This document shows positions 26,154-35,706 of a stretch of DNA of 38,768 bases, one piece after another. Source of the stretch: a virus. The notes beneath the pieces were generated by a model, which saw only the letters and a program-made list of their open reading frames with translations, was not told where the DNA came from and searched no databases. Position numbers and translations under genes: made by a program. Each line of letters starts with the position of its first letter. Within the stretch, counting starts at the first letter, position 1. The DNA is taken from positions 1 through 38,768 of IMG/VR virus record IMGVR_UViG_3300025011_000096. One strand, 5' to 3'.

Positions 26154-27677
26154 ATGTTGAAAAACGACAATCTGCATTTTGATGCACAAGATAAACTTTA
26201 CTCAGGAATCAAGAAAATCGCCACAGCTGTTGGAAGTACTATGGGTACGGCTGGAGGAAACGTTATTATTGAGGCAATTGAAACTCCTGGATACCTCGCA
26301 ACAAACGACGGATTCAGTATTGCAAACAGCATCATCCTTGCCGACCCCACAGAAGACCTTGGACGACGAATCCTTCTTGAATCAATAAACCGTGCCAACA
26401 AGCAGTCTGGCGACGGATCAAGTACTACATGCGTTGTTACCGCTGCAGTCCTTGAAAATGGACGCTCACGAATTGGTAGTGCTCGTCCAATGGAAATTAA
26501 GAGAAGCCTTGAAGAATGTTTACCGTTGGTAATAGAATCAATCAATTCACAAAAGATTGACGTTACTGTAGAAGATATCCATCAAGTAGCATCAATCAGT
26601 GCTGAAGATGTCAATATCGGTAATAGAATTGGAGAGATTTACAAGGAGATTGGTAAAAAAGGAATAATCCACTGGGATATTTCAAAGACAGCGGAAGACC
26701 ATCATGTTATAGGCTCAGGTATTACTGTTGAAGGTGCTGGATATTATAGCCCTTACATGTGCGATGCTTCTGAATCAGGGCAGTCAACAAATCAGGTTCG
26801 TATCAAGAATCCAAAGATTCTTATTACAAAGCAAAAGATTTCAAGTGCCGAAGAACTAGGCGGAATCTCTGGTGCTCTCTTTTCACAAGAAGTACGAGAT
26901 CTTGTAGTATTCTGCGACGATATCGACCCACTTACAATCTCTGATATTATCAAAACACGAGCAGTCCGTGGTTTCCGCATTGTTATTGTAAAAATGCCAG
27001 TAATGTGGAAGGATTGGTGGTTTGAAGATATTGCGAAGGCGACAGGCGCATCAATTGTTGATGTAAATGCAGGACTCTCAATGAAGCAGGTTAAGATTGA
27101 GCACCTAGGAACAGTTGGAGACATCATAATTACAAAAGACGAAACACACCTTGATGGTATTCGTGACTTAAGTTCATACATTTCTTCACTCACTGAAGAT
27201 AACACTGACGATGGTCTTCTTCGAGCAAGCCGTCTCAACACAAAGACAGCACGTTACTTCGTAGGTGCACCAAGTGAAAGTGCCCTTAGCTATCGTCGCC
27301 TAAAGGTTGAAGATGCAATCAGCGCTGCATATCAAGCTCTCAATGGTGGAATTGTAGCAGGTGGAGGCGTAGCGCTTCTACAGGCATCAAAGACACTCCC
27401 ACAAACTATAGGTGGAGACATTCTGCGTGAAGCACTCAAAGCTCCTACTCTACAGATTCTATCAAACGCAGGTATTGAATCGACTAACATTGATTCACTA
27501 GAATCAAATATGGGATACGACAGCCGTACAGGAGAAGTTGTAGACATGGTTAAAGAAGGCATCATCGACCCCGCAAACATTGTTATCAACGCCGTAAAGA
27601 ATTCAATAAGTGTATCAGCAACAGTATTGACCGCACCCACACTTGTTATGCTTCCGATGGACGAATCTCAAATATAA
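26154..27677 (+). CDS. groEL: GroEL-like chaperonin
   Basis: A 507-residue chaperonin (usual length about 540). ATP-site residues are in place: Asp52 in TNDGFSIA, Asp87 in GDGSSTT, and the VEDAISAAYQALNGGIVAGGGVAL region with the catalytic Asp. The apical domain is shorter and divergent, and the C-terminus lacks the GGM tail, ending LPMDESQI. It would assemble a folding chamber for phage (for example capsid) or host proteins. A GroES-like partner lies just upstream. Stop TAA at 27675. Confidence 0.9.
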   Translation: MLKNDNLHFDAQDKLYSGIKKIATAVGSTMGTAGGNVIIEAIETPGYLATNDGFSIANSIILADPTEDLGRRILLESINRANKQSGDGSSTTCVVTAAVLENGRSRIGSARPMEIKRSLEECLPLVIESINSQKIDVTVEDIHQVASISAEDVNIGNRIGEIYKEIGKKGIIHWDISKTAEDHHVIGSGITVEGAGYYSPYMCDASESGQSTNQVRIKNPKILITKQKISSAEELGGISGALFSQEVRDLVVFCDDIDPLTISDIIKTRAVRGFRIVIVKMPVMWKDWWFEDIAKATGASIVDVNAGLSMKQVKIEHLGTVGDIIITKDETHLDGIRDLSSYISSLTEDNTDDGLLRASRLNTKTARYFVGAPSESALSYRRLKVEDAISAAYQALNGGIVAGGGVALLQASKTLPQTIGGDILREALKAPTLQILSNAGIESTNIDSLESNMGYDSRTGEVVDMVKEGIIDPANIVINAVKNSISVSATVLTAPTLVMLPMDESQI

Positions 27678-30190: not shown

Positions 30191-32071
30191 ATGAACGAGA
30201 CAGACCCATTTGCTCTCAATGTACGTGGAGCAACAGATTTGGTTGAGAACCAAACAAACAAGATACGTACTCGTGGAGGAGAGTCACCAGAGGGGCTTTC
30301 TGGAGAGAAAACAGATTCTCTCGATTTAAACATGTCTGATGAAGAACTTATAAAGCTCAAGAACGAGTGGGAAAATAACTACGCAGGTTACGAGGGGAAG
30401 ATGAAGACGATATGGGAGCGAAACCTTGAAAGTTATCTCGGAAAGAAGAAGGACGGGCAATGGTTAAACCCTGAAGGTCCGAGTGCTGCGAATCTTCAAT
30501 TCGAGGCAGAGGAGACATTCTTGTCGGCTGCACTCAGTAAGAATCCTGAGCCTGTTGTTTGGTCTGACAATACTCCTGAAGGGAACGAGATTTCATCAAG
30601 TGTGAAAACCATGCTCGCCTTCCACTCCGACCAGCTTGTACTTCGCCGTAAGCTCGCATTCATGGTACGACAGTGGTCTATCTATCACCTTGGTGTACTT
30701 AAGTTTGGATGGAATGCAGAGATTGGAGACGTAGCAGTAGAGAACAGACGTATCCAGAACTTCGTATTTGACCCAGAAGGATATGTAGATGCATACGGAG
30801 ATTATATAGGTTACGTTGGTGAACGTATTGATGTCACTGCAGAGAAGCTCATAGGGATGTTCCCTAAGTGTAAAGAGTACGTACATAATGAAACTGACGG
30901 TAAGTATGGCACGAAAGTAACATACACAGAATGGTGGTCTGCTGATGGTACTTTTACATTCAAAACATACAAAGGAAAGGTTCTTGAAAAGAATAATAAT
31001 CCATACTTCAACCATCCTGAGCCTGATGTGAATCCAATGACGGGAGAGACTGAAGTAGATGAACTCGGAGAAGAAGTCATGATAACTCCACGTAACCACT
31101 TCGCGATGGCAAAGAAGCCGTATGTGTTCCTTAGTGTATTTAGTCTACAGCAACAGCCTCATGACATCACAGGTCTTATCGAGCAGAACATAGCTAATCA
31201 GAAAAAGATAACTGACCGTAGTGAGCAGATTGATTATAACGTTGGTTCTGCGAATAACGGCTATGCATACAGTGAGGATAACTTTAACCAAGAAACAGCG
31301 AAGCAGGCGGCTAATGCTAGACGTCGTGGGAATCCAATTCTAATCCCAAGTGGCGGTCCTATAGCGAATGCTATCATGCCACTACCAGCACAAAGCCTTC
31401 CACAATCAGTATTCAACGAGGTAGAGATAGCAAAGAACGACCTGCGTCAAAGTTGGGGAGTTCAAGGAATATCAGTTCAGCCTCATGACGAGGATGCAAC
31501 AGCCCGAGGTCTCATCATCAATCAATCGAACGACTCTAGCCGTATTGGTGGAGGTATTGGAGATGCTATTGAACAGGTTGCTGATAATACATTCAATTGG
31601 CTCGTACAGCTCTATTATGTTTTCTATGATGAACAGCATTTCGCTGTAATCATGGGAAGTGCTAAGGCTGTCGAGTACGTTACTCTACAGTCGAGCGACA
31701 TGGATAGACAGGTGATTGTAAGCGTAAGCCCAGACAGTCTTAAGCCAAAGGATGAAGTAACTCAGATAAACCTTGCACAAGCACTATTTGATAAGGGAGC
31801 AATCGGTCCGAAGACACTGCTTAAAATGCTTGACTTCCCTGACCCCGACCAAGCAGCTGCGGATGGTATCTTGTACAAAACAGACCCCATGGCATACATG
31901 ATGTTGAACTTCCCTGAGATGGCACAACAGTTACAATCCTCACAGCAACAAGCAATGATGCAAGCATCACCACAAGGAATGGCACCAGAAGGAATAACTG
32001 AGCCAGCACCTCAAATAAGTCAAGATTCCGCAAGCGCTGCATTAAGTAACGTACCTATTCCATCACTGTAG
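30191..32071 (+). CDS. portal protein
   Basis: A 626-residue protein following the terminase. A helical N-terminal region (about 45-80) with EGKMKTIWERNLESYLGKK leads into a core with repeated QAANARRRGNPILIPSGG-like segments, and the C-terminal 70 residues are Gln/Pro-rich. Order (TerS-TerL-portal-scaffold-capsid) and size fit a dodecameric portal. An AT-rich spacer precedes ATG 30191. Confidence 0.75.
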   Translation: MNETDPFALNVRGATDLVENQTNKIRTRGGESPEGLSGEKTDSLDLNMSDEELIKLKNEWENNYAGYEGKMKTIWERNLESYLGKKKDGQWLNPEGPSAANLQFEAEETFLSAALSKNPEPVVWSDNTPEGNEISSSVKTMLAFHSDQLVLRRKLAFMVRQWSIYHLGVLKFGWNAEIGDVAVENRRIQNFVFDPEGYVDAYGDYIGYVGERIDVTAEKLIGMFPKCKEYVHNETDGKYGTKVTYTEWWSADGTFTFKTYKGKVLEKNNNPYFNHPEPDVNPMTGETEVDELGEEVMITPRNHFAMAKKPYVFLSVFSLQQQPHDITGLIEQNIANQKKITDRSEQIDYNVGSANNGYAYSEDNFNQETAKQAANARRRGNPILIPSGGPIANAIMPLPAQSLPQSVFNEVEIAKNDLRQSWGVQGISVQPHDEDATARGLIINQSNDSSRIGGGIGDAIEQVADNTFNWLVQLYYVFYDEQHFAVIMGSAKAVEYVTLQSSDMDRQVIVSVSPDSLKPKDEVTQINLAQALFDKGAIGPKTLLKMLDFPDPDQAAADGILYKTDPMAYMMLNFPEMAQQLQSSQQQAMMQASPQGMAPEGITEPAPQISQDSASAALSNVPIPSL

Positions 32072-32369: not shown

Positions 32370-33116
32370 ATGAATGAACAAGAAAAGTTCCTTGAAAGTC
32401 TCAATGTAGAACCACAAGACGATATTTTAACTCGCTCGATTAACCCTGAAGCTCCTGAAGCAACTACGCCTGAAGTTCCTGAAAAGGAAGAAGACGAAGA
32501 GGCTGATGGAGTTTCACCACGTAATCGCCGAGAACGACGCTTAATGAAAAAGCTCGACGCAGAACGTTCATCATCAATGCAGTTAGCTGATAGGCTAAAG
32601 GTTGTAGAGGATGCACGTAGCTCATCTGAAGAGAAGGATTATCTCAAGTCTATAGAGAAAATCTATGGTAATGATTCTCCTGAAGCTCAAGTCGCAACAA
32701 GCTTGCTAAAAAATGCAATCATTGGCGCACGTGATGAAGCGAAGTCTCTTGCAATTGCAGAGATGCGTGCTGAACGAGAAGCTGAGAAAAATGCTATTGT
32801 AAAAGCAGAACAGGAACTCGACGATATTATCGACGAGATTGAAGAGTCACAGAATGTTACTCTGACTGCTGCACAAGAAAAAGGCTTTATCCAGCTACTT
32901 CAAAAAATGTCGCCAAAAGACCGCAATGGTACTGTGATTGAATTCGCAGACCCCTCTGCAGTTTGGGATGTCTACAAAGATAAACTAACAAAGAGAACTG
33001 ACACGCGTGCAAAAGACATCGCTGCCCGTTCGATGACTCAAGGTGGGGCACCGCAAGCAAGTACATTGCCAACGGATGCCACCGCACGTGCTTTACAAGC
33101 AATGGGTATTATTTAA
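32370..33116 (+). CDS. putative scaffolding protein
   Basis: A 248-residue acidic/charged helical protein between portal and capsid genes. The N-terminus is acidic (PEVPEKEEDEEADG), followed by a long coiled coil (about 55-175) and a Thr/Ala-rich C-terminus. Composition and position fit a scaffold that shapes the procapsid and leaves before maturation. No family match claimed. Confidence 0.6.
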   Translation: MNEQEKFLESLNVEPQDDILTRSINPEAPEATTPEVPEKEEDEEADGVSPRNRRERRLMKKLDAERSSSMQLADRLKVVEDARSSSEEKDYLKSIEKIYGNDSPEAQVATSLLKNAIIGARDEAKSLAIAEMRAEREAEKNAIVKAEQELDDIIDEIEESQNVTLTAAQEKGFIQLLQKMSPKDRNGTVIEFADPSAVWDVYKDKLTKRTDTRAKDIAARSMTQGGAPQASTLPTDATARALQAMGII

Positions 33117-33128
33117 TATAAATTTATA

Positions 33129-33180
33129 TGGCACCAGGTGTAAATATTACCACTACCACCAACCAGTATTTGGCTCCGTT
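33129..33180 (+). other. major capsid exon 1
   Basis: 52 nt from ATG to the 5' splice site (exon end CCGU pairs with internal guide GCGG at 33194-33197, giving the required U.G pair). Without splicing, translation stops after about 19 codons. The boundary could shift by one or two bases. Confidence 0.8.
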
Positions 33181-35706
33181 AGCCTAACCCAAAGCGGCAA
33201 TTAGTTGATTTATTATTAAAAGGCGCTAAGATATGGTTTATGTCACATAGTGAAGAAACCAAAATAAAAATATCTAACGCACTGAAAGGTCACAAACACT
33301 CTGAAGAAACCCTCGCAAAACTTCGTGGAAGTAAAAGGAGTGACGAGTTTCGCAAAAAGATGAGTGAAATTGCTAGAAATCGTATACCTTGGAACAAAGG
33401 AAAGAAATTAGGAAATTTATTTCCTAATTCTGGACAGTTTGTAAAGGGTAGTAAGCGTTCTAAGGAATCTATCGAAAAACAAAGGACTTCAATGATAGGT
33501 ATAAAACGTACTTCGTCTGAAATAGAGAAGAATAGACAAAGTCAATATCGTAGATTTGAAAAAGAAATAGATGGATATAGTTATGAAGATAACGGTCGTA
33601 GGAACAGAAGAAAGATACGACTTATTAAAAATGGAGGTCATCATTCAATAAAAGAATGGAACGACTTGAAGGAAACTCATAACTTTACCTGTAAAATATG
33701 CCAACTCAAAGAACCTTACATACGATTAACAAAAGACCATATAGTTCCAGTTTCTAAAGGAGGTAGCGACGATATAACAAATATCCAACCTCTCTGTAGG
33801 AAATGTAATTCTATAAAATCAACAAAACTAATTGAAAATCGAGTGAACTCAGGGGAAGTCCAGAACGGATAATCCTGACCCGAGCGTGCATCTAAAAGGT
33901 GCACGAAGGAGCAACGACTAGGTAGTGAAACTCTAACGAGAATATAATCTACCCACGAGCGCTCGACACCGAAAGGTGATGATATAGTCTGAACACTATA
34001 GGAATATAGTGAAGTGGTAATTAAAAAAGCCACGATAACAAAATTGTTTGGGTAGACCAAGTGCTTCGTGACAACTACTTCTTCGGCAAACTAATGCAGA
34101 AGACCAAGAAGTACGAAGGAAGTCAGATGCTTATCCCTAAACTATTTAGTTTCGCTTGGTAAGCGACTTCATGGGGATATAAAATCAGTTCTAATATACG
34201 GCGAAACTCCCACCTGCGCTTTGCGTAAATGGACAACGCCTACCAAGCACATTGACAGATATAATAGGAATGACATATAATGTAGTCATGGAAGATTACA
34301 TTTATATGGCAGGTTTCTTTGATGGTGAAGGATGTATACGTATTAACAAACGGGTAAGACCAGTTAGTATTGAGTATTCTTTGTTTATCTCACTTGGGCA
34401 GAAAGACGGTGCCTGTATGGACTGGTTAGTCAGTACATTTGGAGGACACGTCCATAAAGTCAAGAGAGATAACTCATTTATCTGGATAGTGAGCAATAAA
34501 AAAGCTCACGAGTTTCTAGAAAAAGTAATTCCGTATTTGAAGTACAAGAAACCACAAGCCCTAGCTGCTTTACAACTCGCTAATGGTAAAAGAACAAGAG
34601 TTCTTTCGCCAGAAGAATTAGCAAGACGAGAAAGCATATATCTAGAAATAAAAAGACTTAAACATGTCTTTGAACAACCAATGTTCGCAGGTACAACGAC
34701 TAAACGAATTGACCCGAAAGGGATGTAATAGTCTGAACACGGCAGGAATGTCGTGAGGAGAGGTCGGATAGAGTAAGCAACTATCCCTCGGAAGAATTTC
34801 TCCCTAGTAACAAGCTTGATGAAATACCAGAAGGGTACCGCATCAGTAGCATTCAATGGCTACGACCTTCTCCCAATCTCTCAACAGCCGACGAGCGTCA
34901 ACATGACTTTTTATCCAACATTCATCGCAACAAACGTTTCTCTTGCAGGTACAGACCTTTCGGTCAACGCAACCGCAATGCAAACACTTAAGTTGCTTGC
35001 TGTTGAAATGGAAAGCCGTAAGCAGGATGCCGCAGACGACGTTGGTAACTTCCTCCAGGGTGACGGTACGTCATTCGGTGGAAAGGCTCCGAACGGTCTT
35101 GCAAACACTATCGACAACGGTACTGTCGCAGCAAACTACGGTGGACTTAGCCGTGCAACATACAGTGGTCTTAACGCTACTGTTACAGCATCAGGCGGTA
35201 CAATCTCACTCGTAAAGGTACGTACTCTTTGGAATGCAATCTCAGACGGTCCAGTAGTTCCAGACTTCATTGTAACAGACTACACAACATGGGCTTACTT
35301 TGAACAGCTCCAGACTCCATTCCAGCGCAACACTGCTGACTTCGGTCGTGACAGTGGACGTGTAGCATCTACTTCAGGTTACAGCGAACAGATGTGGGAT
35401 GGTATGATTATCAGCCGTGACAAGAAGGTAACTACTGGTTACTTCTACATGCTCAACATGAAGGACACCCTCGATTGGTACGGTCTTAAGTGGTGGGAAG
35501 GTGAACGTGTCTCTCCAAAGGCAAAGGATATCCAAGGAAACGTATATGAAAACAATCTATACGCTCCAGGTGATGCCTTTACATGGACAGGTATGATTAA
35601 GGCTTACAATCAGGGTACTATCAACGGCTTCATGATTCTCGGTGGACAGATGATTTGTAAGGCTCCGTTCCGTAACGGAGTGCTTACGGGAATTACTGGT
35701 GTGTAA
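33129..35706 (+). CDS. major capsid protein, three exons split by two group I introns
   Basis: Joined exons 33129-33180, 34047-34138 and 34819-35706 give a 343-residue protein without stops: start MAPGVNITTTTNQYLAP, then FWVDQVLRDNYFFGKLM and a QMLIP segment ending exon 2, then MKYQKGTASVAFNGYD in exon 3. Exon junctions are set by P1 and P10 pairings of each intron and keep frame (52+92=144 nt, then 888 nt). The protein resembles the HK97/P22-type coat of related podoviruses (YDTT/VNMTFYPT-type core) and lies after the scaffold. Translation requires splicing; unspliced RNA would stop shortly after exon 1. Confidence 0.85.
33181..34046 (+). ncRNA. group I intron 1 in the capsid gene
   Basis: An 866-nt intron. 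P1 (exon CCGU with GCGG 33194-33197) and P10 (TTTGGG with CCCAAA) fix its ends; the last base is G34046. The catalytic core is visible at the 3' end: P7 GACTA (33916-33920) with TAGTC (33985-33989), P8 CACC-GAAA-GGTG (33967-33978), and P9 CACTATA-GGAA-TATAGTG (33994-34011), with the typical GATATAGTCTGAACAC. The NUMOD3-HNH gene lies in a peripheral loop after P1. Confidence 0.88.
33240..33872 (+). CDS. NUMOD3-HNH homing endonuclease in intron 1
   Basis: A 210-residue protein. The N-terminus has NUMOD3-type repeats (SEETKIKISNALKGHKHSEE and SDEFRKKMSEIARNRIPWNK), and the C-terminus an HNH domain (TCKICQLKE, RLTKDHIVPVSKGGSDDI, PLCRKCNSIK). It would cut intronless capsid genes and promote intron spread. 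It starts 59 bases after the 5' splice site and its end approaches the ribozyme core. No clear own promoter is seen, so it is probably translated from the unspliced late mRNA. Confidence 0.85.
   Translation: MSHSEETKIKISNALKGHKHSEETLAKLRGSKRSDEFRKKMSEIARNRIPWNKGKKLGNLFPNSGQFVKGSKRSKESIEKQRTSMIGIKRTSSEIEKNRQSQYRRFEKEIDGYSYEDNGRRNRRKIRLIKNGGHHSIKEWNDLKETHNFTCKICQLKEPYIRLTKDHIVPVSKGGSDDITNIQPLCRKCNSIKSTKLIENRVNSGEVQNG
34047..34138 (+). other. major capsid exon 2
   Basis: 92 nt. Its first bases TTTGGG pair with CCCAAA (33188-33193) as P10 of intron 1; its last bases TATCCCT pair with GGGGATA (34173-34179) as P1 of intron 2. It continues the capsid frame from exon 1 to exon 3. Confidence 0.85.
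34252..34281 (+). promoter_or_regulatory. consensus promoter inside intron 2, predicted leaderless
   Basis: TTGACA (34252-34257), 18-nt spacer, perfect TATAAT (34276-34281), then ATG 34288 exactly 6 nt later. This would let the endonuclease be expressed without reading through the capsid operon. Confidence 0.75.
34288..34728 (+). CDS. LAGLIDADG homing endonuclease in intron 2
   Basis: A 146-residue protein with the LAGLIDADG motif YMAGFFDGEGC near residues 6-16, the usual hallmark of single-motif dimeric homing enzymes, followed by alpha/beta regions including FGGHVHKVKRDNSFIWIVSN. ATG 34288 is chosen because of the promoter placed 6 nt upstream; a TTG at 34252 would add 12 residues. The last codons and stop (34726-34728) overlap the P7/P8 ribozyme core, so protein and RNA share sequence. 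Confidence 0.85.
   Translation: MEDYIYMAGFFDGEGCIRINKRVRPVSIEYSLFISLGQKDGACMDWLVSTFGGHVHKVKRDNSFIWIVSNKKAHEFLEKVIPYLKYKKPQALAALQLANGKRTRVLSPEELARRESIYLEIKRLKHVFEQPMFAGTTTKRIDPKGM
34819..35706 (+). CDS. major capsid exon 3 (bulk of the coat protein)
   Basis: Encodes the last 295 residues, starting MKYQKGTASVAFNGYD. The first five bases ATGAA pair with TTCAT (34168-34172) as P10, which fixes the 3' splice site just after G34818. On its own this frame could be mistaken for a complete gene with a TTG start at 34816. Confidence 0.9.
   Translation: MKYQKGTASVAFNGYDLLPISQQPTSVNMTFYPTFIATNVSLAGTDLSVNATAMQTLKLLAVEMESRKQDAADDVGNFLQGDGTSFGGKAPNGLANTIDNGTVAANYGGLSRATYSGLNATVTASGGTISLVKVRTLWNAISDGPVVPDFIVTDYTTWAYFEQLQTPFQRNTADFGRDSGRVASTSGYSEQMWDGMIISRDKKVTTGYFYMLNMKDTLDWYGLKWWEGERVSPKAKDIQGNVYENNLYAPGDAFTWTGMIKAYNQGTINGFMILGGQMICKAPFRNGVLTGITGV

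Follow-up and report, generated by a model that had tools for sequence, protein, structure and literature searches.

How can a major capsid gene that lies in three pieces, with a homing endonuclease gene in each of the two gaps, encode a single head protein? The question is posed by a virus record from IMG/VR, 38,768 bases long, which was analysed over its whole length and is referred to below as the window. A 133-bp repeat (99% identity) is common to both ends and another contig, L002, spans the end junction, indicating that the genome is circular or circularly permuted. The capsid gene is preceded by the genes for the small terminase (28030), the large terminase (28424), the portal (30191) and an unassigned product (32370–33116). 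A GroEL-like chaperonin gene (26154–27677; phrog_5725, 1e-85) is located upstream of the packaging genes of this 38.7-kb phage.

The capsid gene comprises three exons on the plus strand: exon 1 (33128–33179), with codons 1–17 and base 1 of codon 18; exon 2 (34047–34138), with the rest of codon 18 to codon 48; and exon 3 (34819–35706), with codons 49–343 and the stop. Their join gives 343 codons and no internal stop. The initial annotation had proposed the same single 343-residue frame, which is obtained with a corrected join: its exon 1 start at 33129 is out of frame and shifts by one base to the ATG at 33128, and its intron 1 start at 33181 becomes 33180, while the bounds given for intron 2, 34139–34818, were unchanged on re-reading. 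Exon 3 identifies the product as a major head protein (phrog_9953, 7e-26), and the annotated capsids of Mx8, BUCT555 and others are 23–29% identical to that of the window. The best fold-search matches for the predicted structure of an intronless relative are phage capsids of the HK97 fold; with a pLDDT of 53, this low-confidence model is poor and serves only as support for that fold. Among the nearest deposited phages is a TM7 phage with 27% capsid identity, which is only a hint at the host. Hydrogenedentes, suggested by one relative in a metagenome bin so labelled that was found in a scan of genome contigs, is not trusted as a host assignment.

Relatives of exon 3 were found in 32 IMG/VR loci and numbered 60 in an alignment-based scan. 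After identical genes were merged, 54 distinct capsid genes had a complete 5' end, and 45 of these are uninterrupted and nine interrupted. The spliced protein aligns without gaps across both joins with the 45 intronless relatives, and those at 71–87% identity are colinear through both joins, so that excision of both introns restores the exon sequence of intronless alleles. Both introns recur in the near-identical contig L002, but since this represents almost the same phage, it adds little independent confirmation. The two contigs differ at 83 positions, 82 of them within one 0.9-kb stretch of the portal gene (30709–31576) and mostly spaced by multiples of three, a cluster that reflects either local recombination or a strain-level assembly switch.

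The cores, guides and Pfam profiles bear out the earlier reading of two group I introns with two families of homing endonucleases. R1, a covariance model that spans P7, P8 and P9 and was trained on five relatives with the window excluded, matches exactly two places in the whole 38.8-kb window, one per intron, in agreement with the P7/P8/P9 cores described at first; the core types of the two introns differ. The U.G-containing P1 helices and the P10 pairings previously reported are also seen in both introns, and both end in G; in each guide the expected U.G is the sole departure from complementarity to the two exon ends.

Intron 1 (33180–34046, plus strand) is inserted after base 1 of codon 18. 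Its core is matched by RF00028 at 33744–34011 when a short stretch is searched (58.7 bits, E 8e-14, gathering threshold 50) and its P7-P8-P9 region by R1 at 33953–34013 (43.1 bits, E 1.2e-9). The guide (33187–33197) pairs through 33194–33197 with the end of exon 1, CCGU (33176–33179), to form a P1 of 4 bp in which the last U faces G 33194, and through 33187–33193 with the start of exon 2 (34047–34053) to form a P10 of 7 bp. A guide of this kind is moderately rare when only the first 60 nt are shuffled (74 of 5000) but not rare on its own, being reached in 75 of 1000 shuffles of the whole intron. In the RF00028 alignment an extra stretch, GGUAG...CUACC, is placed between P7 and P3', where group IA2 introns have the P7.1/P7.2 stems. 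The gene for a 210-aa NUMOD3-HNH nuclease (33240–33872, plus strand) is located between P1 and the core; the HNH and NUMOD3 Pfam matches (PF01844, 3e-13; PF07460, 2.7e-8) agree with the enzyme named initially, as does the LAGLIDADG_1 match in intron 2.

Intron 2 (34139–34818, plus strand) lies between codons 48 and 49, and R1 matches its core at 34694–34757 (84.6 bits, E 1.4e-20). Its guide (34168–34179) comprises 34173–34179, which pairs with the end of exon 2, UAUCCCU (34132–34138), in a P1 of 7 bp with a U.G, and 34168–34172, which forms a P10 of 5 bp with the start of exon 3; only 2 of 5000 shuffles contain such a guide. The R1 model and the alignment of relatives reveal all of the helices P3, P4, P7, P8 and P9, with P3 formed by UCAGUUC (34185–34191) and GAAUUGA (34706–34712), P4 by GGCG (34200–34203) and CGCC (34237–34240), and P7 by GACUA (34698–34702) and UAGUC (34729–34733); covariation in P3, P4 and P7 supports this core. 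Across 15 relatives, 97.9% of the P3 and P7 cells are paired and 32 cells are changed on both sides; the covariation score of 0.355 compares with 0.100 ± 0.018 for shuffled alignments, none of 500 reaching it, and with at most 0.095 for slid controls. The nuclease gene (34288–34728, plus strand; 146 aa) carries a single LAGLIDADG motif, AGFFDGEG (PF00961, 2e-10), and is mostly contained in the P6 loop, with its 3' end overlapping P7, P3', P8 and J8/7. Its product resembles I-MsoI (2e-7) and I-CreI (1e-4) in the PDB, with which it shares the single-motif fold expected to act as a dimer. I-CreI and I-MsoI are encoded in introns of algal organelle rRNA genes, whereas the enzyme of the window sits in a phage capsid intron.

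Rfam covariance models, proposed at the outset as a check, thus support intron 1 and not intron 2: a default scan of the whole window reported neither intron, and intron 2 had no RF00028 match in the window even in a permissive scan. The latter miss stems from the search itself and not from any absent structural feature, because the core of intron 2 is split by a nuclease ORF of about 430 nt in L6. An ORF-less sibling intron at another position of the same gene is matched by RF00028 with 31 bits (E 2e-6), below the gathering threshold. Default scans of six sibling loci returned nothing, and the ORF-less intron of L019 and the intron of L086 likewise had no Rfam match. Because equally long guides exist at nearby out-of-frame sites, the splice sites rest mainly on the reading frame and on homologs. 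Two other kinds of insert were considered and rejected. Inteins are excluded, since the inserts are not in frame with the host protein and stops follow soon after both 5' joins; for group II introns, no family was matched in the permissive Rfam scan and no reverse transcriptase domain was present in the ORFs.

Homologous capsid genes carry group I insertions at about ten positions among the matches listed, all within codons 17–83. Counts of related introns that draw on a pattern scan are lower bounds. Sites are denoted here by codon and base of the window protein, and those of L086, L088–L093, L192, L203, L235, L239, L242 and L248 were read by eye. Intron 1 occupies site 18.1, shared with L086, and intron 2 site 48.3, shared with L088–L093; the other sites are 17.3 (L242, L248), 19.1 (L019, L024/L025, L031, L072, L192, L235), 21.3 (L239), 25.3 (L020, L024/L025), 26.3 (L077), 49.2 (L018, L203), 81.3 (L031, L192, L235) and 83.2 (L030). 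All lie in conserved blocks in the first quarter of the gene, although the probes used in the scans would have found introns further down. Two insertions, at partly different positions, are present in at least five lineages (the window with L002, L024/L025, L031, L192 and L235). Three nuclease families are represented: NUMOD3-HNH, located in the P1 loop in L031 and L072; LAGLIDADG, in the P6 loop; and the endonuclease VII type (PF02945, 9e-25), in the P9 loop in L020 and L077. In the searched stretches of this phage family the core matched by R1 occurs essentially only in capsid genes, and related introns are present in other genes of other phages as well.

L202, L215, L245 and L246 represent other phages in which introns of this core family, with nucleases of the endonuclease VII type, lie in another gene, possibly one for a different capsid protein. 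An identical stretch from two samples (L024:4940–5960 and L025:755–1775) contains two capsid insertions and one ribozyme core. In the upstream insert, at codon 19, an HNH gene is accompanied by a 14-nt P1/P10 guide that pairs perfectly, but this guide lies only about 17 nt from the 3' splice site; the one core is that of the second insert, which follows 20 nt later. The upstream insert may borrow the downstream core, or it may be dead; translation might also restart at a GTG that lies just before the short middle exon. At site 48.3 in L091/L093 (~3477), the join compatible with the protein seems to leave the intron with a terminal A in place of G.

Nuclease similarity follows the insertion site and not phage relatedness, which indicates homing. 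The window and L088, which share site 48.3, have nucleases 53% identical and capsids only 41% identical, whereas L018, with a capsid 78% identical to that of the window, has its intron 2 nt away at 49.2 and a nuclease only 29% identical. The nuclease of L203, also at 49.2, is most like those at 48.3 (46–53%), which suggests a site shift of 2 nt. Relatives of the NUMOD3-HNH enzyme, 40–55% identical to that of the window, occur at 18.1 and 19.1, where they accompany different ribozyme cores. This pattern fits nuclease-driven homing combined with exchange of nucleases between introns. In L092 a NUMOD3-HNH gene (2188–2700) that stands free and shares the promoter layout of the intron nuclease genes immediately precedes the capsid gene, whose start codon in this locus appears to be ATC instead of ATG.

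The promoter layout concerns the start of the nuclease genes. Upstream of the LAGLIDADG gene a sigma-70-like consensus promoter, TTGACA-18-TATAAT (34252–34281, plus strand), ends its -10 element 6 nt before the ATG and is reached in none of 500 shuffles. The HNH gene is preceded by a weak promoter-like site, TTGATT-16-TAAGAT (33205–33232, plus strand), with the -10 element ending 7 nt before the start, which does not rise above shuffles (p 0.48). When 17 related nuclease genes are compared, the -10 score has a sharp maximum of 4.6 of 6 at an offset of exactly 6 nt from the ATG, as against about 2 elsewhere; taken one by one, most of the LAGLIDADG gene sites are unlikely by chance and the HNH gene sites are not. 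Consensus-like promoters with the -10 element ending exactly 6 nt before the start are found also in L018, L024, L030, L031, L072, L077, L088, L090–L092 and L192, while among the 51 window genes checked no other has an equally strong promoter at that place. Recognisable Shine-Dalgarno sequences are rare in the window, where the sequence ahead of start codons is rich in A/T, as in AACTAT|ATG.

A start point predicted to fall on the AUG implies leaderless mRNAs. Expression of the intron 2 nuclease would thus probably depend on its own promoter; in the capsid precursor RNA the AUG, having no ribosome-binding site, would be silent and yield no nuclease. Since this gene overlaps P7, P3', P8 and J8/7, a silent AUG in the long transcript would protect splicing by keeping ribosomes off the ribozyme core. 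Extended to three unrelated nuclease families in three different loops, this proposal is tentative, and we give it somewhat less than an even chance. If true, it would be an answer to the conflict between translation and splicing other than that of phage T4. There, I-TevI of the td intron has its own promoter inside the intron and the 3' end of the ORF overlaps the ribozyme core (PMC2988022), as is predicted for the promoter and seen for the ORF here. In T4, however, the promoter is a late one and the ribosome-binding site is hidden in a hairpin, whereas here no ribosome-binding site is recognisable and the predicted start is on the AUG. A literature search for work linking leaderless mRNA to intron-encoded homing endonucleases returned none, though this does not prove that none exists.

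Taken together, the locus is very probably an HK97-fold capsid gene of an uncultured tailed phage, carrying two mobile group I introns, which would be excised as ribozymes and maintained by nuclease homing into a recurrent target. In the late capsid transcript each intron would fold into its own ribozyme, whose guide would pair with both exon ends, by P1 with its U.G and then by P10, and so choose the splice sites; self-excision is predicted to restore the frame of 343 aa. The NUMOD3-HNH enzyme of intron 1 and the presumably dimeric, I-CreI-like enzyme of intron 2 would cut intronless alleles of co-infecting phages at conserved sequence, and repair would copy the intron in. Persistence by homing is suggested by the phyletic pattern, and the 5' quarter of the capsid gene is a recurrent target in this phage group.

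If the inserts were instead endonuclease genes that broke the capsid gene, a working capsid would have to come from exon 3 alone, and an in-frame ATG is indeed present exactly at its start (34819). This ATG is not a conserved alternative start, because most relatives have Ile and not Met at position 49. Moreover, exons 1 and 2 are conserved about as well as exon 3, with many synonymous changes: compared with L006, amino acid identity is 88% in exons 1–2 and 86% in exon 3, codons 1–48 differ by 18 synonymous and 6 amino-acid-changing substitutions, and W19, D21, L24, R25, D26, N27 and P48 are invariant among the relatives. Intact group I cores would also have no explanation, and we consider a broken gene very unlikely. 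That the locus is an assembly chimera is scarcely credible: the contig is metagenomic and the 0.9-kb portal stretch differs between near-identical contigs, but the exon joins, guides and covarying helices, together with homologous introns in independent contigs from other samples, argue against it.

Two further readings concern what the introns and nucleases are for. That one highly expressed gene has been occupied again and again, each time in its first quarter, could mean that the introns were retained to regulate late capsid expression, with splicing as a timing or host-state switch, and are not only selfish; this is improbable, given that 45 of the 54 relatives have no intron at all, that positions, core types and nucleases vary by lineage, and that intact nucleases fit homing. 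A role in competition, the nucleases cutting the capsid gene of rival phages in co-infection, was shown for an intron nuclease of phage PhiPA3 (PMC11620839), and intronless relatives at about 70–90% identity keep the target motifs. Sequence data cannot separate such a role from plain homing, and we regard it as possible and on the doubtful side. Two homing introns in the capsid gene are the preferred reading.

Introns of this kind are already known, from the capsid genes of crAss-like phages, the capsid intron of mycobacteriophage LittleE and multi-intron genes of Staphylococcus phage Twort. The zeta and delta groups of crAss-like phages have intron-rich major capsid genes, with introns and inteins in many genes (PMC7886860), so that the initial description of the arrangement as unusual holds for small phages and not in general. 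As here, the crAss-like capsid gene is in several pieces, separated by group I introns with endonuclease ORFs. Those phages are large, however (145–192 kb for one family, compared with about 38.7 kb), and their case was annotated from domains, whereas the sites in the window are set by intronless relatives and guides, and within the stretches searched, R1-type introns turned up nowhere but in the capsid gene. The LittleE capsid gene also contains a probable group I intron with a homing endonuclease, with U at the 5' splice site and G at the 3' end, and its splicing was shown by RT-PCR and N-terminal sequencing (PMC3706429); it differs in being a single intron with its ORF on the opposite strand in an unrelated phage, and splicing is here predicted from sequence. 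Lactococcal phage Tuc2009 has one group I intron in its capsid gene, as cited in PMC3706429, and Twort has a gene with three introns (Landthaler and Shub 1999, as cited in PMC6669764). By that secondary account, Twort and the window are alike in having several group I introns in one phage gene. Twort is a larger phage, and its three-intron gene is not the capsid gene.

What is new is the small-phage family, the approximately ten positions with empty-site controls and the predicted leaderless-promoter arrangement. Most of these introns escape a standard Rfam scan, so that gene prediction yields a truncated capsid gene, exon 3 alone, beside "HNH" or "LAGLIDADG" genes, which is a warning for annotation pipelines. 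In this phage group one essential, highly expressed gene has been targeted repeatedly, at about ten positions, by two core types and three nuclease families, with dozens of empty sites. The system makes intron site-shifting, nuclease swapping and the efficiency of capsid-gene splicing directly testable.
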